From Nitrosomonas sp. (GTDB lineage Bacteria > Pseudomonadota > Gammaproteobacteria > Burkholderiales > Nitrosomonadaceae): DNA of 32,068 nt. The translations under genes were made by a program, and so were the position numbers. The stretch covers positions 1-32,068 of the forward strand of contig JAGOKN010000028.1 of assembly GCA_017994575.1 (NCBI GenBank), written 5' to 3'. Below are positions 1 through 10,992 of the stretch, one piece after another; positions within the stretch are counted from its first letter, which is position 1; each line of letters opens with the position of its first letter. The notes beneath the pieces were generated by a model that worked only from the letters and a program-made list of their open reading frames with translations, ran no database searches and was not told where the DNA came from.

Positions 1-652
1 TCAATGGCGAGGCTTCTCCCGCAACAGGTTGATTCGCCAGCCACTTTGCGATTGTATCCGCCTCGTGATCAGTCAACTGTCTAGCAATCTCAGACATACA
101 ATCAGAGGCCTGTCCCCGTATAATGCTACCTTTGCGCCACCCGCCCAACTGTGCCGTGATGTAGGCACGAGAAAGTCCAATCAGCCCCGGAATGGCAGGT
201 TCTATTCCCATCAGATTATCCCCATGGCAGGCACTACATGCGGGAACATCTTTCTGCGCATTACCCGAGTAAATGAAACGTTCCGCCAGTTCAATTTCTT
301 CAGGCTGCATGACAAAGCTTTCAGGTTCCGGATAGAGCAACCGGAGTGAAGCAAAATGATGTGCGATTGATTGCAGGTAGTCATCCGACATATTTTCCAG
401 CAAGATATTCATCGGTTGGTAATAGCGCCGACCATCTCTGAAATTGCGTAACTGATTAAACAGATAACCCTGCGGCTTACCCGCGATACGGGGGTAATAT
501 GCATCACGCCCGGCTTTATCCTCTGCACCATGGCAAATGGTACAGGCTTTCACACGCTCATCCATGGTATCAGGCACAGTCACCGAAGGGCTACCATACA
601 CATTCGCCACGCAAGCGACCCCGAAAAATATCAACACTATAAAACGCATCAT
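1..652 (-). CDS. Diheme cytochrome c (c4-like), 3' end outside window
   Basis: This is a secreted diheme electron carrier, read on the minus strand from ATG at 652 with no stop before the window edge (217 codons visible). Residues 1-20 form a hydrophobic signal peptide, so the product should be periplasmic. Two heme-attachment motifs are visible: CTICH at residues 37-41 and CSACH at 139-143. Each is followed by a PxIxG and YLxxQLxxFRxGxR-type stretch and a later Met (for example Met81) that could be the sixth heme ligand, a pattern typical of the cytochrome c4/c553 family. A second ATG directly follows the first, so the start could be 649. There is no strong ribosome binding site. The gene runs in the same direction as the LicD-type gene but is separated from it by about 115 bp, so co-transcription is uncertain. 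The specific redox partner cannot be told from the sequence. Confidence 0.85.
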   Translation of the reverse strand, partial: MMRFIVLIFFGVACVANVYGSPSVTVPDTMDERVKACTICHGAEDKAGRDAYYPRIAGKPQGYLFNQLRNFRDGRRYYQPMNILLENMSDDYLQSIAHHFASLRLLYPEPESFVMQPEEIELAERFIYSGNAQKDVPACSACHGDNLMGIEPAIPGLIGLSRAYITAQLGGWRKGSIIRGQASDCMSEIARQLTDHEADTIAKWLANQPVAGEASPL

Positions 653-768
653 TGAGGATTCCATACTTTGACTGTTCAAATGAGTGAACGAAGCGCAATG
701 AAATGCCCCGTTCGTTATGTTGCTGAGCAATGATAGTTGGAAATACCGATCCTGTTCAATACATCAAG

Positions 769-2349
769 CTATTTCTTACTCGATTTGCGCTCCGACTTTG
801 CGGCACTTTTCTGACTCCCACCCCCTGCTAGAATTCGCGCCACCAAATCTGAAGTTGAAATACCCGACGTATATTCAAGCTCTTGAATCATTTCAGTAGG
901 TAATGTTTCGCACAGTTTATATTTATCCTGTCTTTCCTGCTCGGATGCGCACGCAAACGTATAAATATCATAACCATTTTGTTGCATGAATACTGGGGTA
1001 ATACTGGCAGGAGTGTCAGTGACCACGGCATCCACATATTTGCAAGCAGAAACAATCGCTGCACGCTCGGCTTGCTTCATGACGGGGAACTTGCCCTTAT
1101 TTTCCAGCACACGCTCATCGGAAACCACGCACACCGTTAAATGCGTGCCCAATGCACGCGCTGCCTGCAAAAAATTGACATGGCCTTCATGAAACAAATC
1201 CGCCACCATACGCGTATATATCCGTTTTTGCCGCTGATTCTTCGGCCATACCGGAATTTCCTTGCCTAAACGCGTGATGGCGCGCTCCAACCATTGGCGA
1301 CTACGTAAAGCCAACACGTCATCCGGATCCTTCATAGCAATCTGATGCGCGTAGTACCAAGCTTTATTAAGATCCCCCAGCAACCAGCGTTGCACCAGCC
1401 GATGGTAGGCATAACAACGAACCAACAGTGTAAAATTTTCCAGATTGAGGGCAGAAATCACAGTATCCCAATGGGGATTGGGTGTTCGCCAGTCCCCATA
1501 AAATGCTGTGAGAATTTTCTCCGGTTGGCGAGGAAACCAGATTCCACCGAATTCAGTACTGCGCTGCACTAAATCAAAGGCAGGAAAAACCGACACCCGC
1601 TGATACTCTGTTGGATAATTGGGGAGTGAAAATCCACCGACGATGCGCTGATCCTCTCGATGCTTCAAACCACACACATCCAGCGTAATGCCTAATTCCG
1701 GATGAACAAAATCGCGATAATTGCTATATTCAATGCGCATAGGTGATCTGACCCATCCCATTTCCTCCAGCGCGGCACAGCATGCTTCCCAAGATTCCAT
1801 CCACACAGCGATGTCCAAATCTTTATCAAAATCCAACAGGCATCCATTACGCACCAAACCTAGCAAAGTCCCTGCAAATGGAAATGCAGGAATACTCAAC
1901 TTGGCTAATTCAGCACAGGTCATCTTTAATAAATTTTCCGCTTCTCCTGAAGCAAATACATTTTCGTCGTTCAATAGAGTCTTTTCTGATTTTCTATTCG
2001 GCGGAATTTTTCCCGTTTTGGCCAGCGCCATTAGGTGGTTTAAAGCACAGACGAAATGGGTGCGGGTTGCGGATAAATCCAGCAAAATGAAACTCGCCGT
2101 ACCCAATGTTTGCGCCCAATGAGCCTTGTAAAAATCACTTTGCACATGGGCGTAAATTTTCTCAGCATAATCCAGCACATCGCTCGCACGATTGGTACGC
2201 ATTGCCAATGAACACCAAAGCCTTGCCACATCCTGTGACATCGGATATTCATTCTTTAATGGATCCAATATCTCTGCCGCATCATTCAGCTTCCCGCTGG
2301 CAATTAACTGTTTTGCTTGCAATAACAAGTCTTCAAGCGGCTGAGTCAT
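769..2349 (-). CDS. TPR / LicD-like / cytidylyltransferase fusion protein
   Basis: A 526-residue soluble protein with three recognisable parts. Residues 1-100 are helical and TPR-like. Residues about 135-295 resemble LicD-type phosphotransferases: GTLLGLVRNG at 160-169, the acidic DKDLDIAVW at 175-183, and YGDWRTP at 284-290. Residues about 375-505 resemble the nucleotidyltransferase superfamily of CTP:phosphoethanolamine, phosphocholine and glycerol-3-phosphate cytidylyltransferases. They carry LFHEGHVNFL at 385-394 in place of the usual G-x-F-D-x-x-H-x-G-H loop, and ISTSD at 497-501. By family knowledge, one half would activate a phospho-alcohol with CTP and the LicD half would move a phospho-group onto a glycan; having both in one chain is my inference. 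The C-terminus is a Lys/Ser-rich tail. The gene diverges from the RTX gene, with a Fur box between them about 110 bp upstream of this start. The substrate is unknown. Confidence 0.8.
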   Translation of the reverse strand: MTQPLEDLLLQAKQLIASGKLNDAAEILDPLKNEYPMSQDVARLWCSLAMRTNRASDVLDYAEKIYAHVQSDFYKAHWAQTLGTASFILLDLSATRTHFVCALNHLMALAKTGKIPPNRKSEKTLLNDENVFASGEAENLLKMTCAELAKLSIPAFPFAGTLLGLVRNGCLLDFDKDLDIAVWMESWEACCAALEEMGWVRSPMRIEYSNYRDFVHPELGITLDVCGLKHREDQRIVGGFSLPNYPTEYQRVSVFPAFDLVQRSTEFGGIWFPRQPEKILTAFYGDWRTPNPHWDTVISALNLENFTLLVRCYAYHRLVQRWLLGDLNKAWYYAHQIAMKDPDDVLALRSRQWLERAITRLGKEIPVWPKNQRQKRIYTRMVADLFHEGHVNFLQAARALGTHLTVCVVSDERVLENKGKFPVMKQAERAAIVSACKYVDAVVTDTPASITPVFMQQNGYDIYTFACASEQERQDKYKLCETLPTEMIQELEYTSGISTSDLVARILAGGGSQKSAAKSERKSSKK

Positions 2350-2431
2350 AGCCGATAACCAGTCATTTCATTTTTATTCACAATCACCAAAGCGGCTCCA
2401 ATCAATTCTCGGACATGGCAGATAATAAAGA

Positions 2432-2459
2432 TTGCATTTTAACCATTATTTAATATAAT
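2432..2459 (+). promoter_or_regulatory. Sigma70-type promoter of the RTX gene
   Basis: The -35 element TTGCAT (2432-2437) and a perfect -10 TATAAT (2454-2459) are separated by 16 bp. The predicted transcription start falls inside the adjoining Fur box, and the chosen start codon of the RTX gene is about 80 bp further on. The bfd promoter has nearly the same architecture. Confidence 0.65.
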
Positions 2460-2478
2460 AGGAATCATTCTCATTATT
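2460..2478. promoter_or_regulatory. Fur box (RTX / LicD-fusion intergenic region)
   Basis: The minus-strand 19-mer AATAATGAGAATGATTCCT matches 13 of 19 positions of the classical Fur consensus GATAATGATAATCATTATC. It sits immediately downstream of a TATAAT -10 element, where bound Fur would block transcription of the RTX gene. It could also act on the divergent LicD-type gene, whose start is about 110 bp away on the other side. Confidence 0.7.
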
Positions 2479-2546
2479 ACTTGATGAGACAGTACGTATA
2501 TTCAATGCATGAATTGCTTTTAGGCAACATTTCTGGAGACAATATT

Positions 2547-3191
2547 ATGGCAGTAATACGGGATAGGCGCCCTAACTTGGGCTCGGGAGCGGTTAAGTTT
2601 ATCGATGGAATTCCTTTTGATGGTTTGGGGTCCGCTGGATTCGGTGAAGATGACTTACTGATCATTGGCGATGATTTGGATAATCTCGATCTGATTGGCG
2701 GTTCTGGCCATGATGAAATAGACGGTGGCGCCGGCAATGATGTCTTAAGAGGCGGTGCCGGCAATGGCATTTTGATAGGTGGGGACGGCAATGATGATCT
2801 GGACGGACAGGAAGGCACCGAAAAACTGTTTGGCGGCAATGGCGATGATATCTTAAGAGCCGGCGGCAGCAAACCGGCCAACATCCCAGCGCCTGAGCTA
2901 GCAGATTACGATAGGCTGAATGGCGGCGCCGGCAGCGACACCTTTGGTTTTTATGGGCTAGGCAGCTTTGAGATCGCTGATTTCACACCGGGCGAGGATC
3001 GTCTGTTTTTTGATACAGCATCCATTGGCATCGATCATATTGAAGAGCTATTACCTTACATATCAAGAGTAATCGAACCTGCCGGCAATAACGGTTATAT
3101 CGTTGAATTTGTTGGCGGTGCTGCAACCATTGAGTTTCTTAACTTCAACATTAATGCTCTTACTGCAGACATGATTGTGTTCAGTCTCTAA
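2547..3191 (+). CDS. RTX-repeat calcium-binding protein, probably secreted
   Basis: The protein is 215 residues from the chosen ATG, which has GGAG at 2535-2538 eight bases upstream; an in-frame TTG/ATG further upstream at 2481-2486 lacks such a site. Residues 51-104 form six consecutive glycine-rich nonapeptides (GGSGHDEID, GGAGNDVLR and so on; the fifth, GQEGTEKLF, is degenerate). A seventh, GGAGSDTFG, lies at 126-134. These are RTX beta-roll repeats that bind calcium. The following IADFTPGEDRLFF resembles the C-terminal region of serralysin-type RTX proteins. There is no N-terminal signal peptide, as expected for type I secretion through a C-terminal signal. No catalytic domain is visible and no ABC exporter lies nearby. 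The promoter overlaps a Fur box, so expression under iron limitation is expected. Its role is not known. Confidence 0.8.
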   Translation: MAVIRDRRPNLGSGAVKFIDGIPFDGLGSAGFGEDDLLIIGDDLDNLDLIGGSGHDEIDGGAGNDVLRGGAGNGILIGGDGNDDLDGQEGTEKLFGGNGDDILRAGGSKPANIPAPELADYDRLNGGAGSDTFGFYGLGSFEIADFTPGEDRLFFDTASIGIDHIEELLPYISRVIEPAGNNGYIVEFVGGAATIEFLNFNINALTADMIVFSL

Positions 3192-3251
3192 GCCAGCTTA
3201 TCGACTTAATCATCTCAGCGTTTTGCATCACGGGTAGGTCTTTCTCTTCTC

Positions 3252-3291
3252 AAAAATGCCCTACTGCTTAATTAAGCAGTAGGGCATTTTT
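3252..3291. terminator. Bidirectional rho-independent terminator
   Basis: This is a perfect 40-bp palindrome with two 20-base arms meeting at TTAATTAA. It has a GC-containing stem (GCCCTACTGC) and a run of A on the left and T on the right. It lies between the convergent RTX and diheme peroxidase genes and can terminate both transcripts. Confidence 0.9.
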
Positions 3292-3324
3292 ATTAGCTAC
3301 CCAACCCTTTCTCTTACCTCTACT

Positions 3325-4779
3325 CTATAGTGAAGCCAGAAAAGCCACCAAATCAGACTTTTCCCTCTCAGTCAGTCCAATTGCAAAGCGAGTGTCATAA
3401 AACTCAACGACGGCTGGCAAATCTTTCGCAGAACCATCGTGAAAATAAGGAGGTCTTGATGCAACCGCACGTAGAACCGGCCCTTTGAAACGTCCTATGT
3501 CTTTCCATTGGCCGGTAATCAAAGCACGCCCCGGGTCGGTAGTTTGAATGGTCTCGCCGGTCGTTTTGTTCCTCAATGTGTACAAAGGCATATCAGGGGT
3601 ACGACGCGATGCATCTGAGATACCGATATCCAGTGGCATTGGCGTTGAATGATTGCCAGAATTTGGCGTGTTGTGACAAGTGGTGCATGTACCAGGCAAT
3701 ACGCTTATACCAAGGTCATCATTGATTCCTTTGACTCCAGCAATTTGAATCGGCTTGTTATTAAACAAATCCTGGCCGCGCGCAATGGCGGCACGAGCAC
3801 GTTCCTGATCAATTCGTGATCTAGCAGAATAACGATGCCACGTATTATAGAGCGACATGACATTGGGATTAAAAAGCTCGCGGGTATGATAATCTCCCAC
3901 AAGAGTATCATTAATGCCAAAATAATAAGTCTGATTAATCAGCCTCTTAGGTCCACCTTGAGCACCATCCTCGCTTAAACTACCGGCGACTTTGTCTCGC
4001 ACCTGCGCAGTAAATAATCCCATCTCGAACGCGACAATTTCATCACGCTCTGCTTCGTTCAGTGCCGCTAATGCCTCTGCATGCCCCAATGTGGCGTGGT
4101 TTGCTTGTGTAGACAAATCCAACGGTATCGGCGAGAAACAGGTTGTCGTGCCATAGATACAATCGCTGGAGCTTGGATCAAGCGTTGTCTCACGCCCTTC
4201 CCACATAACCGCACTAATAAATTTCAGATTAGTTGTCGGCATAGGACGACGAAACAATGACAATTCTGTCGCGCTTGCAAAACCATACGGATCATCTACT
4301 GCATCCAGTTCAAATTCGGCATTGGCAGGAATACCAATACCGACACGGATATTTGCTTTGTTTAGTAACATGCTGTAGGCCTGGCGGCGCTTTTCAACAG
4401 TGGATACGTCAGCCAAAGGAGTATTAGCGCCATCAACTAAGCGAAAAACTGGATCTAAGCCTGCCGTTTTCTCGAAACGCGCCTTTACACCTTTAGGGGT
4501 AATTACCCACCCTTCTGTAGGAACATGGCAAGTCGCGCAAGTCCGGTCATTCGTTCCAAATTTTTTAAAAAACGCATTCTCGAAATCAATAAAGCCTGCC
4601 GTACTATAGGTTTTATCTACACCATGGGCATTAATCGCACTGATAGTTTTTGGTTTCTGTGAGATTGCACGCTCACTCTCGATGATAATACTCACGCTAT
4701 CTACTGCCAGTACTGGTGTAGCCAACATAGTCAGTGAAGCAAGCACCGATACGAATGCCTTGCTATTTTTACTATTCAT
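3325..4779 (-). CDS. Diheme cytochrome c peroxidase / MauG-family protein
   Basis: A 484-residue periplasmic protein with a signal peptide cleaved near residue 25 (ATPVLA). Two heme-binding motifs are present: CATCH at 81-85 and CTTCH at 365-369. The C-terminal region carries the conserved stretch RPPYFHDGSAKDL (442-454) seen in bacterial cytochrome c peroxidases and MauG-like enzymes. It is longer than classical CcpA (about 320-350 residues), with an insertion between the hemes, so it belongs to the wider diheme family. That family reduces peroxide or oxidises protein substrates, and the exact reaction cannot be assigned here. The start is supported by an AAGGGAAG sequence shortly upstream. 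The gene appears monocistronic and ends at the shared palindromic terminator. Confidence 0.85.
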   Translation of the reverse strand: MNSKNSKAFVSVLASLTMLATPVLAVDSVSIIIESERAISQKPKTISAINAHGVDKTYSTAGFIDFENAFFKKFGTNDRTCATCHVPTEGWVITPKGVKARFEKTAGLDPVFRLVDGANTPLADVSTVEKRRQAYSMLLNKANIRVGIGIPANAEFELDAVDDPYGFASATELSLFRRPMPTTNLKFISAVMWEGRETTLDPSSSDCIYGTTTCFSPIPLDLSTQANHATLGHAEALAALNEAERDEIVAFEMGLFTAQVRDKVAGSLSEDGAQGGPKRLINQTYYFGINDTLVGDYHTRELFNPNVMSLYNTWHRYSARSRIDQERARAAIARGQDLFNNKPIQIAGVKGINDDLGISVLPGTCTTCHNTPNSGNHSTPMPLDIGISDASRRTPDMPLYTLRNKTTGETIQTTDPGRALITGQWKDIGRFKGPVLRAVASRPPYFHDGSAKDLPAVVEFYDTRFAIGLTEREKSDLVAFLASL

Positions 4780-5018
4780 TTTTTCTTCCCTTTGTTTAAA
4801 AAATAAAATAATGACTGTGATGAGGTCAAGAAGCTTCTGAATCAGTAGTCATGTAGACACCAAGGAAAAATCTTACTTACGCAGCAACAATTGAATTTGA
4901 TCTATGCAAAATTTTCTTAACTAGCGCAGTATTATCCTGATAAAACACATAAATTAGAATGTGACAAATTGCCGCACTTGATCTAGTCTGACTTCCTGGA
5001 TTGGCTTGGTTTAATGAA

Positions 5019-5190
5019 ACCGGACTGTCCGGTTAAGAGAAAATAGCTTAACTGGAGGAAGAAGATGAAATTACCCCACACCCAATATAGTCAAGAATTT
5101 AGGGAGCAATCAGTTAAGTTTTTTAAAGAAAATGGGGTAACTTTGATTGAAGCAGAAAAATTGAAAAAAGTCGCTTAACTGGGTTGTCCG
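5019..5190 (+). mobile_element. IS3-type element, left-end remnant
   Basis: The stretch begins with the palindrome ACCGGACTGTCCGGT (5019-5033) and holds a ribosome binding site and the first codons of an OrfA-like transposase. The segment GTCCGGTT occurs again at its right edge (near 5185-5192), directly before the GC-rich block. Only about 170 bp remain, so this is a stub. The assignment to IS3 rests on the short protein fragment alone. The roughly 240 bp between the diheme peroxidase start and this remnant show no gene. Confidence 0.5.
5065..5178 (+). pseudogene. Truncated IS3-type OrfA transposase fragment
   Basis: This is a 37-codon ORF with a good ribosome binding site (GGAGGA at 5054-5059). 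Its sequence, with QEFREQSVKFF then a turn and IEAEKLKKVA, resembles the beginning of the helix-turn-helix OrfA protein of IS3-family transposases (typically about 90-100 residues). It stops where the IS remnant ends, so it is a non-functional truncation. Confidence 0.55.
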
Positions 5191-5193
5191 GTT

Positions 5194-8100
5194 TTACTTG
5201 ACCAGGTCACCGCCGCGCGCACCGTCACCCACCAGGAGCGGTGAACGCTGGAGATCGTCCAGCGCCATCGGTCGCGCGTAGAGGTACCCCTGCAGGCTCT
5301 GGCAGCCCTCGGCGCGCAGGAACGCGGCTTGGTCTTCGTTCTCCACCCCCTCGGCGACGACGGAAAGGCGCAACGACTGGGCCATTGCAAGGATGGTCCG
5401 CACGATCGATGCATCCTCGAAGATCGAGGTGCAGTTGGTGACGAACGCGCGATCGATCTTCAGTGTGGCGATGGGCAGCTTGCGCAGGTACGACAGACTC
5501 GAGTAGCCGGTGCCGAAGTCGTCGACCGAGACCGACACGCCGCTGCGCGACAACGAACGCAGGATGTCGATGACGTGATCCAAGTCGGTCAGGAAGATCC
5601 CCTCGGTCACCTCGATCACGAGGCGCGTCAGGTCGCCGCCTTCGGCGTTGCACGTGCGCCTGAGCGTGGCTTCGAAGTCCTGCGACAGCAGCTGGCGCGC
5701 CGAGATGTTCACCGCCATGTACAGGTCCAGGCCTTGCTGCGCCAACTGGACCTGGGCCCGACAGGCCTCGATCATGGTCCAGTTGCCCAGGCTTTCGATC
5801 AAGCCCGTGCTTTCGGCCAGCGGGATGAATTCGGCCGGAGACACCGGGCCGAGCTTGCCGGACGTCCAACGCATCAGCGCCTCGACACCGATTATCCGGC
5901 CGGAGGCTGCGGACACGATCGGCTGGTAGACCTGCCATATTTCGTCGAGCTGGATCGCGGACTTGAGTCCGTGATAGAGCTCAAGCTTGCGCTTGGCAAC
6001 GCTCTCGATCTGATCGGTAAAGAACATCGAGGTGTTGCGCCCCACATCCTTGGCGACGTAGAGCGCGCAGTCCGCATGCCGCATCAGCAGGTCGGCACTG
6101 TCGCCGTGCTCGGGGTATAGCGCGATGCCGACGCTGCACGAACCGGTGAGCGTCAGGTCGGCGCTTTCCACCGGCTCGTTGATCGAGCCCAGCAGTTGGT
6201 CAGTGAACGTCTGCGCCCTGGCCGCGTCCACGTCGGGAAGTACGACAACGAACTCATCGCCGCCGGTGCGGTAGACGGTGTCCTCCTTGCCCACGGCGCT
6301 CTCGAGACGCCTGGCGATGCCGATCAGGTACGCATCGCCGATGGCGTGGCCCAGCGAGTCGTTGATCGTCTTGAAGTGGTCGAGGTCGATGAACAGCAGC
6401 GCAAAGGGCCTGCCGGCACCGATCAGGCAGTCGAGCGTCGTGCCCAGTTGGATGCGGTTCGCCAGACCCGTCAGCGGATCGTGGTACGCCAGAAATTCGA
6501 TGTGCTGCTCCGCCCGGCGCTGCTCGGTGATGTCGATGCACAGGCCCAGGATGCAGGGCGACGACGGGTCGGGGAACGCGAACGGGATCTTCGTGGTGGC
6601 CAGCAAGTGGACGTTGTTCTCAGCATCCGTCATCTTCTCTTCGATGGTTTTCGGCATGCCGGTGCGCATCACCTCGGAGTCGTCGCGCCGGAAGTTCGCG
6701 GTTTCTACGGCCGATTTCTCGAAGTCCGCGTCCTTCTTGCCTTCGAGTTGCGCCACCGTGGTGCCGTAGGCTCGGGCAACGCATTCGTTCGCCAGCACGT
6801 AGGTGCCTTCCGCGTCCTTCGCGAAGATGAAGTACGGGATCAGATCGATGACCTGCCGCAGCAAGGCAGCGTCCACCATGTCGGGGCCCGGTGGTCGCTC
6901 CAACTCCACTATAGAGTGCCTGGTTATCAGCGCCTCGATGTCGACCATCCGGTCGGAAGCGACGGACACGATCGGCTGGTCGACCTGTTGCATCTCGTCG
7001 GACTTGAGTCCGTGGTAGAGCTCAAGCTTGCGCTTGGCGACTCTCTCGATTTGATCGGTGAAGAACGTCGAAGTGTTGCGTCCCGCATCCCTGACAACGT
7101 AGAGCGCGCAGTCCGCATACCGCATCAGCATGTCGGCACTGACGCCATGCTCGGGGTACAGCGCGATGCCGATGCTGCACGAACCGGTGAGCGTCAGGTC
7201 GACGCTTTCCACCGGCTCTCTGATCGAGTCCAGTAGTTGGTCAGTGAACGTCTGCGCCCTGACCGCGTCTGCGTCTGGAAGCACGACGACGAACTCGTCG
7301 CCGCCGGTGCGGCAGACGGTATCCTCCTTGCCCACGGCGCTCTCGATACGCCTGGCGATGCCGATCAGGTACGCATCGCCGATGGCGTGGCCCAGCGAGT
7401 CGTTGATCGTCTTGAAGTGGTCGAGGTCGATGAGCAGCAGCGCAAAGGGCCTGCCGGCACCGATCAGGCAGTCGAGCGTCGTACCCAGTTTGATGCGGTT
7501 CGCCAGACCCGTCAGCGGATCGTGGTGCGCCAGAAATTCGATGCGCTGCTCCGCCCGGCGCCGCTCGGTGATGTCGATACACAGACTCAGGACGCAGGGC
7601 GACGACGGGTCGGGGAATGCGAACGGGATCTTCGTGATGGCCAGCAAGTGGACGTTGTTCTCAGCATCCGTCATCTTCTCTTCGATGGTTTTCGGCATGC
7701 CGGTGCGCATCACCTCGGCGTCGTCGCGGCGGAAGTTCTCGACTTCTTCGGCCGATTTCGCGAAGTCTACGTCCTTCTTGCCTTCGAGTTGCGTCACCGT
7801 GGTGCCGTAGGCCCGGGCGACGCATTCGTTCGCCAGCACGAAGGTACCTTCCGCATCCTTCGCGAAGATGAAGTACGGGACCAGATTGATGATCTGCCGC
7901 AGCAAGGCAGTGGCCACCATGTCGCGACCCGATGGTCGCTCCAACTCCACTATGGAGTGCTTGATTTTAGGTTTGCGCTGATTTTGTGTAATGCTCGTAT
8001 CAACATGCCAGTCTTTCCTGACCATGATATCGTGCATTTGTATTTGCTCATTCACCCGCGCTAACAGTTTATCCCACGCATGGGCTGCCGTCAGTCGGGT

Positions 8101-8421
8101 TCTGAAGCGCGACAGTACGGAATGATCCGGCACATCGTCTTCCAATGATAATCCCAGAAATCGCATCACGTGAAGATTCGAGTTCGCCATATCTTCCGCC
8201 GACTCATCGCTTAAACCACCATTCCAGATGCCTACCAACAGTATCTTGAATAGCAGCAATCCCGAATAAGCCGGACGACCTGCAGCATCCGATACCGGAG
8301 CGTAATATACTGCGATCGCTTCCTCTATCGGGTTCCAGTCGATCAATTGATCAATTTGCTTCAGGAAATTCCCTTTACGGGTGCGACGGATTACATCGTA
8401 TTCCGAGAAACTCATATCCAA
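5194..8421 (-). CDS. Chimera: IS5 transposase N-terminus + PAS-GGDEF-PAS-GGDEF-EAL
   Basis: A single open frame of 1075 residues. Residues 1-154 are the N-terminal domain of an IS5-type transposase (DUF772-like, with KILLVGIWNGGLSDE and SRFRTRL). Residues 155-501 are PAS, GGDEF (motif at 373-377) and a 30-residue stump of an EAL domain. Residues 502-1075 are a second PAS, GGDEF (720-724) and a complete EAL domain with EALMRW (847-852), NISARQ, DDFGTGYSSL (967-976), LKID and VAEGVE. By family knowledge, GGDEF domains make cyclic di-GMP and EAL domains degrade it. The key residues look intact in all three, while the usual RxxD inhibitory site before GGDEF is absent (GKED). There is no membrane segment, so it should be cytoplasmic. 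The last codons and the stop come from the neighbouring IS remnant. Whether the chimera is expressed from the transposase start is unknown. Confidence 0.8.
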   Translation of the reverse strand: MDMSFSEYDVIRRTRKGNFLKQIDQLIDWNPIEEAIAVYYAPVSDAAGRPAYSGLLLFKILLVGIWNGGLSDESAEDMANSNLHVMRFLGLSLEDDVPDHSVLSRFRTRLTAAHAWDKLLARVNEQIQMHDIMVRKDWHVDTSITQNQRKPKIKHSIVELERPSGRDMVATALLRQIINLVPYFIFAKDAEGTFVLANECVARAYGTTVTQLEGKKDVDFAKSAEEVENFRRDDAEVMRTGMPKTIEEKMTDAENNVHLLAITKIPFAFPDPSSPCVLSLCIDITERRRAEQRIEFLAHHDPLTGLANRIKLGTTLDCLIGAGRPFALLLIDLDHFKTINDSLGHAIGDAYLIGIARRIESAVGKEDTVCRTGGDEFVVVLPDADAVRAQTFTDQLLDSIREPVESVDLTLTGSCSIGIALYPEHGVSADMLMRYADCALYVVRDAGRNTSTFFTDQIERVAKRKLELYHGLKSDEMQQVDQPIVSVASDRMVDIEALITRHSIVELERPPGPDMVDAALLRQVIDLIPYFIFAKDAEGTYVLANECVARAYGTTVAQLEGKKDADFEKSAVETANFRRDDSEVMRTGMPKTIEEKMTDAENNVHLLATTKIPFAFPDPSSPCILGLCIDITEQRRAEQHIEFLAYHDPLTGLANRIQLGTTLDCLIGAGRPFALLFIDLDHFKTINDSLGHAIGDAYLIGIARRLESAVGKEDTVYRTGGDEFVVVLPDVDAARAQTFTDQLLGSINEPVESADLTLTGSCSVGIALYPEHGDSADLLMRHADCALYVAKDVGRNTSMFFTDQIESVAKRKLELYHGLKSAIQLDEIWQVYQPIVSAASGRIIGVEALMRWTSGKLGPVSPAEFIPLAESTGLIESLGNWTMIEACRAQVQLAQQGLDLYMAVNISARQLLSQDFEATLRRTCNAEGGDLTRLVIEVTEGIFLTDLDHVIDILRSLSRSGVSVSVDDFGTGYSSLSYLRKLPIATLKIDRAFVTNCTSIFEDASIVRTILAMAQSLRLSVVAEGVENEDQAAFLRAEGCQSLQGYLYARPMALDDLQRSPLLVGDGARGGDLVK
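5869..7959 (-). repeat. Tandem duplication of a PAS-GGDEF unit (~1.04 kb period)
   Basis: The unit beginning with codons for HSIVELERP occurs at 7959 and again at 6918 (reading leftwards), a period of 1041 bp. Copy 1 spans about 6919-7959 and copy 2 about 5869-6918, after which copy 2 continues into the full EAL domain. The two copies are nearly identical over long stretches. Copy 1 has lost four codons near its end (KSDEMQQV against KSAIQLDEIWQV) and stops inside the EAL domain. Confidence 0.9.
7960..8421 (-). mobile_element. IS5-type transposase 5' fragment
   Basis: These 154 codons encode the start of an IS5-family transposase and have base composition like the surrounding genome, unlike the GC-rich cyclic-di-GMP part that follows. 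The frame passes straight into the PAS module after QNQRKPKIK, where an intact transposase would go on to its DDE catalytic domain. The upstream 277 bp (8422-8698) contain no gene; the far end of the element could lie there but was not identified. Confidence 0.7.
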
Positions 8422-8656
8422 TCACTTCAATACCGCTGTTTTAAAACATTATTGTAACACCAGATTCTATAATTGAGGGGATGGCCGTGCAAAAATCTCA
8501 TAACGTGTCCGCAATGACGATCTTAGGATAATAGCCGTAACGTTTTTTTGCAGGCATCAATTTGCGCTTAAAGATCATGGCCTTGACCAGATCAAGCTAA
8601 ATTGACTGATTACAACTTATTTCAAACAGAATCTTCGTTAGAGAAAAGATTCCAGT

Positions 8657-8698: not shown

Positions 8699-10951
8699 CT
8701 ATATCAACTCACGCTCATAAGCCGATATGATTTCAATGATAGTCGATCCTGCGGTCAATGCTTTGGAAACGTCATCCGTTTCGCCCGCTTCCCTCAAATC
8801 CTGCAATGCATTTTGCATTTTTACTCGTTCAAGGGAACCCAAACGTAATTCCAAATCGGGCAAGAAGATGTTGATATACAGGGACACTCTTTCTGAAGCC
8901 AGCAGAGCCTGGTTTTTATCGGCACCAAATGTCGCCCCGATCACACTAACATTACGGTTGATCTGACCAATAATTCCTTTACTGACCTCACTCACGATTT
9001 CATTAGCGACTACATTCGCCATGTCACCGGTTAATTGCGTTTTGATACGATTGCTTCCCGCAGGATTATCCTGAGCAATGAGTCCTTCGACGATACGATA
9101 GAAAAACTCACCTTCAATCTGTTTTTCTCTTGCTTCAGTAACATCGGCATCGCGATCATCAATGATTCCTTCCACTTCGCGCAGTACCCCGATCAGATAG
9201 CTTCTCACCAAAGGAATAATGATATTTTCCCGTGCGATTGCAAGATTCAAACGATCATCGGTATTTGCTTTGCTTAATGCCTGTCTTCCTTGTACAAATG
9301 CCAGTGTAATTTGATCATCCAGATCCGGATTAGTCCCCGATTGCAGAGTTTGTCTATCTTCTGTTAGGACTTTATTTTCCCTGCCTGCAGTACCAGTAAT
9401 GGCCGAGTAAGCAGCATTGGCTCTATCCCACTCCAGTTCCAATTCACTGGTCGAAAGGCTATCAAAACCATCATTGACTAGCGTTATTCGGTTATAGACT
9501 ACGAGCGCAAAAACGCGTTGCAATGATTTATCGATAATCTGCGCTGCAAATGCAACTTCGTTGCCACTTTTGATAGATTCAATGGCCGCCGTAACATCCG
9601 CGTTTATTGATAGACCGTAGACTTGATCAGCAATCTGCGTCAGTTGTTGCAAATCTCCAGCATAGGCAGCAGCAATAGCTTGCCCATCGACCGTCGCTTG
9701 TCCACGCAATTCCCCTATCGTCTTAAAACTTGAAACAGCGTTATCAATCAGCGCTGTGCTAGTGGTAGCGCTATATTTAACTAAGTTCAGCTCAACTTCG
9801 TAGCTATCCAGAATCGCTGAAATGACATTGCGTGCTTCTTCAGATTTAGGCACGCTATTTTCACTACTTGCGCTTTGTAGATTGCTGAGCGCGGTTTCCA
9901 AATTTGAACGAGTATCTGCATCTAAACGCAACTCCAGATCAGGCAGAAGAATTTTGGCAAAAGCTACTGCTCCTGAAGCCTCTGCCATCGCTTGCACACG
10001 ATTAACACCAATATTTTCCGCTTGCCCATTCATCTCACCTTTAACCCTGCCAATCAATCCCTTACTTAATTCACTGACTATCTCGTCGGCCACCACATCG
10101 GAAACGTTTCCTGCCAATTGAGCTTTAATCAGCGCATTGCCTGTTGGATTATCGCGCGCAACCAATGATTCGATGATACGATAAAAAACTTCACCTTCTT
10201 TTAATTGAATCCGTGCAGTGATCAGATCCGAACTCCTATTTCCAATCACACCCCTAACTTCACGTAAAACTCCGATGTAATAAGCACGCGCTAATGCCAT
10301 TCTGGTGACATAACGCTCAACAGCAATCGTTGCAAAATCTTCAGTAGGATTGCTCTTATTCAGTGCTGTTCTAATGCGTGCAAATGATTCATTGATTTGA
10401 ACATCCAATCCTGGATTGCTGCCTTCTTCTATGAATTTTCTATCCGAACTCAGCACTTCATTAGACCTAGCAGTCGTTCCAGAGATGGCCTGAAAGGCCG
10501 CTTCAGTCTCATCCAGCAATTGGATTAACGTAGCGGATGTCGCCGATTCAAATTGATCTCGTATTGCTGTTATACGATTAAAAAAACTTTGATAAAAAAC
10601 ACGTTGCAAAGTCTTATCTACCACCTGGGCTGCCAGGCTTGGTTCGTTCCCACTCTTGATCTCTTCAATCGCAGCCAGAATATCACTATCCAGTTGCAAG
10701 GAATTCCCTTCATCAATCTCTACCACAAGGCTTTGAAGAGCGCCCGCATAAGCATTGGCGATTGCATCACCATTAATTGGTGTTTCTTTGCGCAATGTTC
10801 CAATGGTTTGGAAAGCAGTCACAGCAGTTTGAATTGTTTGGATATCGGAAGCTGCAAACACGCTCGCATTACCCATCGAAAACGCAATAAAAAACAAACC
10901 CATCGTCAGCGCCTTACTCAATGAGTTTACAAGCCACTTTAATAAGAACAT
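8699..10951 (-). CDS. Fur-controlled exported protein with two homologous domains
   Basis: The protein is 750 residues from the ATG at 10951, chosen because AGAAAGGAG (10961-10969) lies nine bases upstream; an upstream in-frame start at 10981 would overlap the promoter. Residues 1-33 form a signal peptide ending near VFA. The mature part consists of two clearly homologous, mostly helical domains, about 36-388 and 398-750. Both contain IGVLREVxGxI (near 226 and 587), EGExFYRIxExLxAxDNP (near 252 and 613), SGNExxxAAQ and FLPDLELRL or LLPDLELRL. I do not recognise the family. It lacks the GxHxxE motif of imelysin/EfeO-type iron proteins, has no heme-attachment motif and has almost no cysteine. 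A near-perfect Fur box covers its promoter, and a siderophore receptor gene lies just upstream on the same strand. A periplasmic or surface role in iron limitation is inferred; the molecular function is unknown. Confidence 0.8.
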   Translation of the reverse strand: MFLLKWLVNSLSKALTMGLFFIAFSMGNASVFAASDIQTIQTAVTAFQTIGTLRKETPINGDAIANAYAGALQSLVVEIDEGNSLQLDSDILAAIEEIKSGNEPSLAAQVVDKTLQRVFYQSFFNRITAIRDQFESATSATLIQLLDETEAAFQAISGTTARSNEVLSSDRKFIEEGSNPGLDVQINESFARIRTALNKSNPTEDFATIAVERYVTRMALARAYYIGVLREVRGVIGNRSSDLITARIQLKEGEVFYRIIESLVARDNPTGNALIKAQLAGNVSDVVADEIVSELSKGLIGRVKGEMNGQAENIGVNRVQAMAEASGAVAFAKILLPDLELRLDADTRSNLETALSNLQSASSENSVPKSEEARNVISAILDSYEVELNLVKYSATTSTALIDNAVSSFKTIGELRGQATVDGQAIAAAYAGDLQQLTQIADQVYGLSINADVTAAIESIKSGNEVAFAAQIIDKSLQRVFALVVYNRITLVNDGFDSLSTSELELEWDRANAAYSAITGTAGRENKVLTEDRQTLQSGTNPDLDDQITLAFVQGRQALSKANTDDRLNLAIARENIIIPLVRSYLIGVLREVEGIIDDRDADVTEAREKQIEGEFFYRIVEGLIAQDNPAGSNRIKTQLTGDMANVVANEIVSEVSKGIIGQINRNVSVIGATFGADKNQALLASERVSLYINIFLPDLELRLGSLERVKMQNALQDLREAGETDDVSKALTAGSTIIEIISAYERELI

Positions 10952-10992
10952 CACAAAAAACTCCTTTCTAAAATTATCCAAAGATAATAATA

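Follow-up and report, generated by a model that had tools for sequence, protein, structure and literature searches.

A stop-free reading frame joining a truncated IS5-family transposase to a predicted cyclic-di-GMP enzyme in Nitrosomonas

PdeL (YahA) of Escherichia coli is described as an HTH-EAL trigger phosphodiesterase with a LuxR-like HTH and reported DNA binding, and like it the gene studied here joins an N-terminal domain of DNA-binding context to a c-di-GMP enzyme (PMC5052742). Rickettsia palindromic elements are described as a short peptide inserted in frame into a host gene, a second case of mobile DNA lying in frame with host coding sequence as it does here (PMC10969869). We analysed a window of 32,068 nucleotides from Nitrosomonas sp. 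(contig JAGOKN010000028.1 of assembly GCA_017994575.1, the whole stretch under study), in which the start of an IS5-family transposase continues in frame into a GGDEF-EAL protein. Judged from the sequence, the gene is probably an accidental chimera made by insertion sequences, a predicted c-di-GMP enzyme to which the transposase piece would contribute a leader and otherwise be a passenger.

Anatomy of the fusion frame

Positions 5194-8421 of the minus strand form a single stop-free frame of 1,075 codons, from a TTG at 8421 to a TAA at 5194. The likelier start is an in-frame ATG at 8415, which fits the MSFSEYDV-type start of related transposases; from this ATG the frame (5194-8415) gives 1,073 residues, the first 152 of them transposase-derived (7960-8415). 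The first-pass annotation had counted 154 transposase codons, of which the origin stands and the number becomes 152. It had also described a stop-free passage from transposase into PAS-GGDEF-PAS-GGDEF-EAL, and the frame and the Pfam and NCBIfam domains agree with this order. Pfam placed DUF772, PAS_4 (two stretches), GGDEF (two stretches) and EAL, all above cut-off. Since a random join would agree in frame about one time in three, by our reckoning, the in-frame state alone is no strong evidence of selection.

All domains lie on the minus strand. DUF772 (8053-8280) is followed by PAS1 (7564-7875, a PAS_9 profile match), GGDEF1 (7078-7530, the stretch matched to the sequence of structure 4yme_A, with its signature at 7291-7305), PAS2 (6514-6843, a PAS_4 profile match), GGDEF2 (6034-6489, profile match, signature at 6250-6264) and a complete EAL domain (5269-5964, profile match, signature at 5875-5883). 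The GGDEF signature is intact in both domains, at residues 371 and 718 counted from the ATG (Pfam E 1.5e-85), and an EAL motif occurs at residues 494, in a truncated EAL start, and 845. The complete EAL domain covers Pfam profile positions 5-236 of 236, and its EAL, N, E, DD, K, E and Q positions, which we take to be the catalytic residues, line up with those of 5m3c and 4rnh. The earlier claim that the GGDEF and EAL residues look intact is thus upheld, with signatures kept in both GGDEF domains and in EAL. In both GGDEF copies a glycine replaces the arginine of RxxD, presumably the inhibitory-site motif.

A tandem duplication of about 1,041 bp accounts for PAS-GGDEF being doubled. Copy A (6919-7959, minus strand) comprises PAS1, GGDEF1 and an EAL start only, and then runs into copy B (5873-6918, minus strand), which comprises PAS2, GGDEF2 and the first part of the complete EAL domain. 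Window positions 6926-7966 and 5873-6925 each match the opposite copy in a second strain at ~90%. Between the copies dS is 0.15 and dN/dS 0.51, and with five outgroups 21 differences appear derived in copy A and 13 in copy B. The 5' edge of copy A coincides with the IS5 junction (7959/7960) to within a few bases. The nine bases preceding copy B agree with the IS5 side at 6/9 positions, counted by eye at an offset chosen by eye, a match with a chance of about 0.01 under equal base frequencies in a stretch too short to rest on; it hints that the IS5 fusion may be earlier than the duplication. A short palindrome (arms ACTCCA and TGGAGT, 3-base loop) lies at 7942-7956, at the edge shared by fusion and duplication, and is a possible breakage hotspot.

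Mobile-element edges and origin of the enzyme part

The transposase part of the frame was assigned by Pfam, NCBIfam and congener alignment. DUF772 is found at residues 48-123 (counted from the TTG) with E 1.8e-19, over profile positions 1-74 of 74. The N-terminus matches NCBIfam NF033581 (IS5 family transposase) at positions 2-134 of 285 with 76.7 bits, short of the whole-protein cut-off (140), as would be expected for a cut copy; two intact relatives score 226.6 and 234.2. DDE_Tnp_1 was absent from the fusion in the Pfam scan and present in both relatives scanned (L180 and L034). Thirteen distinct congener copies that align across all of residues 1-152 show 70-86% identity to the fusion there, and five of them stay open for at least 349 residues (L034, L180, L183, L044 and L049). 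In 19 other IS5-similar loci the match ends at 7959-7965 (12 loci) or earlier (five), and L046 and L035 match 12-23 bases beyond the junction. Likeness to other IS5 copies ends at the junction, and therefore no right end of the element follows; of the inverted repeats only the left was found, at 8486-8499 (minus strand), where it reads GAGATTTTTGCACG. Its tip is abutted by an 85-bp remnant (8500-8584, minus strand) of a second, different IS5-family transposase gene. The IS5 fragment finds matches at E 1e-20 in four of 250 genomes sampled from the order; all four, one of them the window's own, are Nitrosomonas.

Pairwise dN/dS between the fused IS5 part and 18 other copies is 0.06-0.17, similar to that of most pairs of distant intact copies, and mostly reflects the time preceding the fusion. 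The fused copy has eleven residues that no other copy shares, where the others have 0 to 18 such residues (18 compared), and several of the eleven lie near an aspartate that we take to be the first catalytic one of the transposase.

Upstream of the ATG, the leader following the left repeat is present and resembles that of other copies, in line with the first-pass view that the insertion sequence would supply the start codon; by eye, a GAAG in this leader is a candidate ribosome-binding site. A promoter from the same source had also been proposed, a suggestion the scan does not bear out, as it returned one promoter-like site with 0.8 expected by chance. The terminator scan returned nothing exceeding chance.

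At its other end the frame runs into a remnant at about 5007-5209, with terminal repeats visible by eye. We take this remnant to be IS3-like, from an OrfA-like frame in L196 and from its repeats. Its terminus ends at 5209, inside the final codons of the fusion, and provides both the four closing codons (DLVK) and the TAA stop; an identical DLVK-stop is supplied by the IS3-like terminus to a gene at L173 811-2100 (G022:C30), presumably a cheA-like gene cut in this way. The enzyme gene is thus flanked by mobile-element remnants at both ends, IS5 at its start and IS3-like at its stop.

The composition of the enzyme part (GC 0.63, GC3 0.85) stands apart from that of the IS5 part (GC3 0.53) and of five other window genes (GC3 0.38-0.46), by which it is apparently foreign and acquired elsewhere. 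The earlier proposal of a captured signalling gene fits a part of foreign composition behind a start codon and leader supplied by an insertion sequence. The flanking genes (3325-4779 and 8699-10981) have their matched parts 0.4 kb apart in congener G005, as against 4.1 kb in the window, so that ~3.6 kb has been added, from roughly 5003 to 8584; by eye, the intergenic edges are alike in G005 and the window. Among the matches listed for 22 congeners (best 8 candidates each), the flanking genes are adjacent in G005 only; in G020, which is a single contig, the best matches of the two are widely separated, and in several other congeners they sit on different contigs, a pattern that counts against the chimera reading.

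A donor of the enzyme gene was not found in the genome-contig, class-genome, plasmid or congener searches. With a 574-residue unit as query, genome contigs gave at most 45% identity over a matched segment (best 80 matches), 369 genomes of the class gave only the window's own at E 1e-130 (best 3 candidates per genome), and 72,556 plasmid records gave a best match of 41% over 94% of the unit. Among the candidates scored, the closest relatives, 51% identical, are in congeners G024 and G029 (61 genomes, best 12 candidates each). Over a 7.4-kb stretch the window matches the Nitrosomonas oligotropha Nm45 genome, which holds L102, at 75% identity, and congeners G005 and G108 at 75% and 74%; pieces common to the window and the Nitrosospira NpAV genome are 64-73% identical. 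These matches fit a Nitrosomonas host, probably an ammonia oxidiser.

These edges also suit a silent pseudogene, that is, a recently arrived foreign gene clipped at both ends by insertion sequences, with its frame still open for want of decay time. Such a pseudogene is possible, though we hold it rather unlikely. It agrees with the mobile remnants on either side, with the composition still being foreign, and with a promoter-like signal at chance level, the last of which weighs against a working chimera. The other close IS5 copies found in the window's genome are likewise partial or broken, some of them at contig ends.

Second strain and constraint on the frame

The junction at 7959/7960 also lies in the interior of contig G093:C16 (L052), 99% identical over 3,507 bases, which carries the entire fusion gene at 99% and shows a 127-bp deletion flanked by direct repeats of 10 bp (5046 and 5173), within the IS3-like remnant. 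This contig is 99-100% identical over much of its length to contigs C107 and C30 of the window's genome (G000), and G093 holds separate 64-75% matches to most other window parts and to portions of C16. C16 thus most likely comes from a G000-like strain and was mis-binned, and we count it as a second strain, not a second species. Searching related genomes for the same junction, as the first-pass annotation had advised, we found it in two of 85 genomes of the genus, the window's own included (best 3 candidates per genome), apparently both of one species; so narrow a distribution agrees with a recent pseudogene, and a fusion in one species only may be too young to judge.

The second strain bears as well on whether an IS5 copy was misjoined to a GGDEF gene during assembly. 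The window's genome is fragmented (147 contigs) and repeats favour misjoins, but the identical junction is interior to a ~1%-different contig with its own 127-bp deletion, which makes misassembly unlikely; we give an artefact hardly any weight.

Within the fusion frame the two strains differ at 23 sites, 12 of them nonsynonymous. Eight differences cluster in codons 238-259 (window 7647-7708), where copy A of G000 resembles copy B, and this cluster is likely a gene-conversion tract between the tandem copies. When the tract is excluded, a step decided after the data were seen, 5 of 15 differences are nonsynonymous (simulated P about 0.004; 0.0037, 0.0045). With all differences retained, 12/23 is a borderline deficit (P 0.05), which tempers the chimera reading. 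Outside the tract, copy B and the EAL domain show 2/9 nonsynonymous differences (simulated P 0.002), so that PAS2-GGDEF2-EAL looks to be under constraint. Copy A without the tract shows 3/6 (P 0.28), no significant constraint, which fits a pseudogene and, together with its truncated EAL start, speaks against the chimera reading. The IS5 part has zero strain differences in 462 bases (P 0.08 if the rate of the gene itself is assumed, 0.01 with that of window positions 1-5044). Synonymous and nonsynonymous strain differences in the flanking genes number 1/2, 4/4, 14/4 and 6/1.

Set against a pseudogene are the deficit in PAS2-GGDEF2-EAL and the signature residues that have been kept. No stop or frameshift within the frame separates the strains either, but this outcome is expected 73% of the time with 15 differences. 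Translation might begin inside the enzyme part, so constraint there gives no proof that the IS5 part is made. The C-terminal PAS2-GGDEF2-EAL unit may well be functional.

The chimera reading can be put as a series of putative steps. A high-GC PAS-GGDEF-EAL gene would have come to lie among broken insertion sequences, with genes on either side that are adjacent in one congener. Its leader, the candidate GAAG ribosome-binding site and its start codon would come from an IS5-family element cut off behind codon 152, the IS3-like terminus would give the last four codons and stop, and the ~1,041-bp tandem duplication would have created the second PAS-GGDEF. The locus would then make a predicted c-di-GMP enzyme, its output most likely coming from the intact PAS2-GGDEF2-EAL, while the transposase piece would ride as a passenger. 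In this account we infer that the gene is transcribed, that translation crosses the junction and that the enzyme is active, and we infer the sequence of steps as well.

DNA tethering and comparison with known systems

An alternative, raised in the first-pass annotation as well, is that the gene is an exapted c-di-GMP enzyme tethered to DNA, in which the IS5 N-terminal domain would serve as DNA binder, coupled PdeL-like to c-di-GMP turnover. The complete DUF772, the IS5 part free of strain differences, and the left repeat ~70 bp upstream of the start, the sole exact match to a 15-base pattern in the window's genome (86% complete), would suit this reading, but a single exact site leaves few targets, and eleven residues of the fused copy recur in none of the others among the 18 compared. 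A full-length structure model from a shallow alignment of 40 sequences places 736 of 1,073 residues at pLDDT 70 or above, with pLDDT below 50 across much of residues 1-166 and 466-513 and ten-residue blocks of the IS5 part at 24-55; modelled alone (21 sequences, likewise shallow), the IS5 part has a mean pLDDT of 56. Neither model gives a confident fold for the domain on which tethering would depend, and neither decides for or against a folded DNA-binding domain. We consider tethering improbable. A specific form, in which the target of the fusion protein would be the IS5 left repeat of the leader that precedes it, with its own expression coupled to c-di-GMP in a PdeL-like circuit built of insertion-sequence parts, seems just as improbable.

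Under the chimera reading, the locus would be a well-resolved case in which insertion sequences provide both the start and the stop of an apparently acquired gene, with an insert-free congener (G005) for comparison and a second strain for measuring constraint. Should the cell make the fused protein, the locus would illustrate how easily truncated foreign genes can be rescued by scraps of insertion sequences. DNA binding by its IS5 domain as well would make it a bacterial parallel to the transposase-domain captures that have been reported in eukaryotes. The titles and abstract openings of the open-access literature searched name no transposase-GGDEF fusion.

With an IS5 family transposase (NF033581; DUF772 plus DDE_Tnp_1) the fusion shares residues 1-152, the left inverted repeat and the leader; unlike an intact one, it has neither DDE_Tnp_1 nor the element's right end. 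Its residues 641-1053 align with 5m3c (diguanylate cyclase) and 4rnh (motility regulator), which we take to be MucR and MorA, over the full GGDEF-EAL, signatures included; relative to both it has an extra PAS-GGDEF, by internal duplication, and the transposase N-terminus. In contrast to the Rickettsia palindromic elements as described in the cited text, its start is a partial transposase and its stop comes from the end of another insertion sequence (PMC10969869). From PdeL, as described with its LuxR-like HTH, it differs in that its N-terminal domain is a cut transposase, a putative DNA binder at most, and in the presence of GGDEF domains (PMC5052742).
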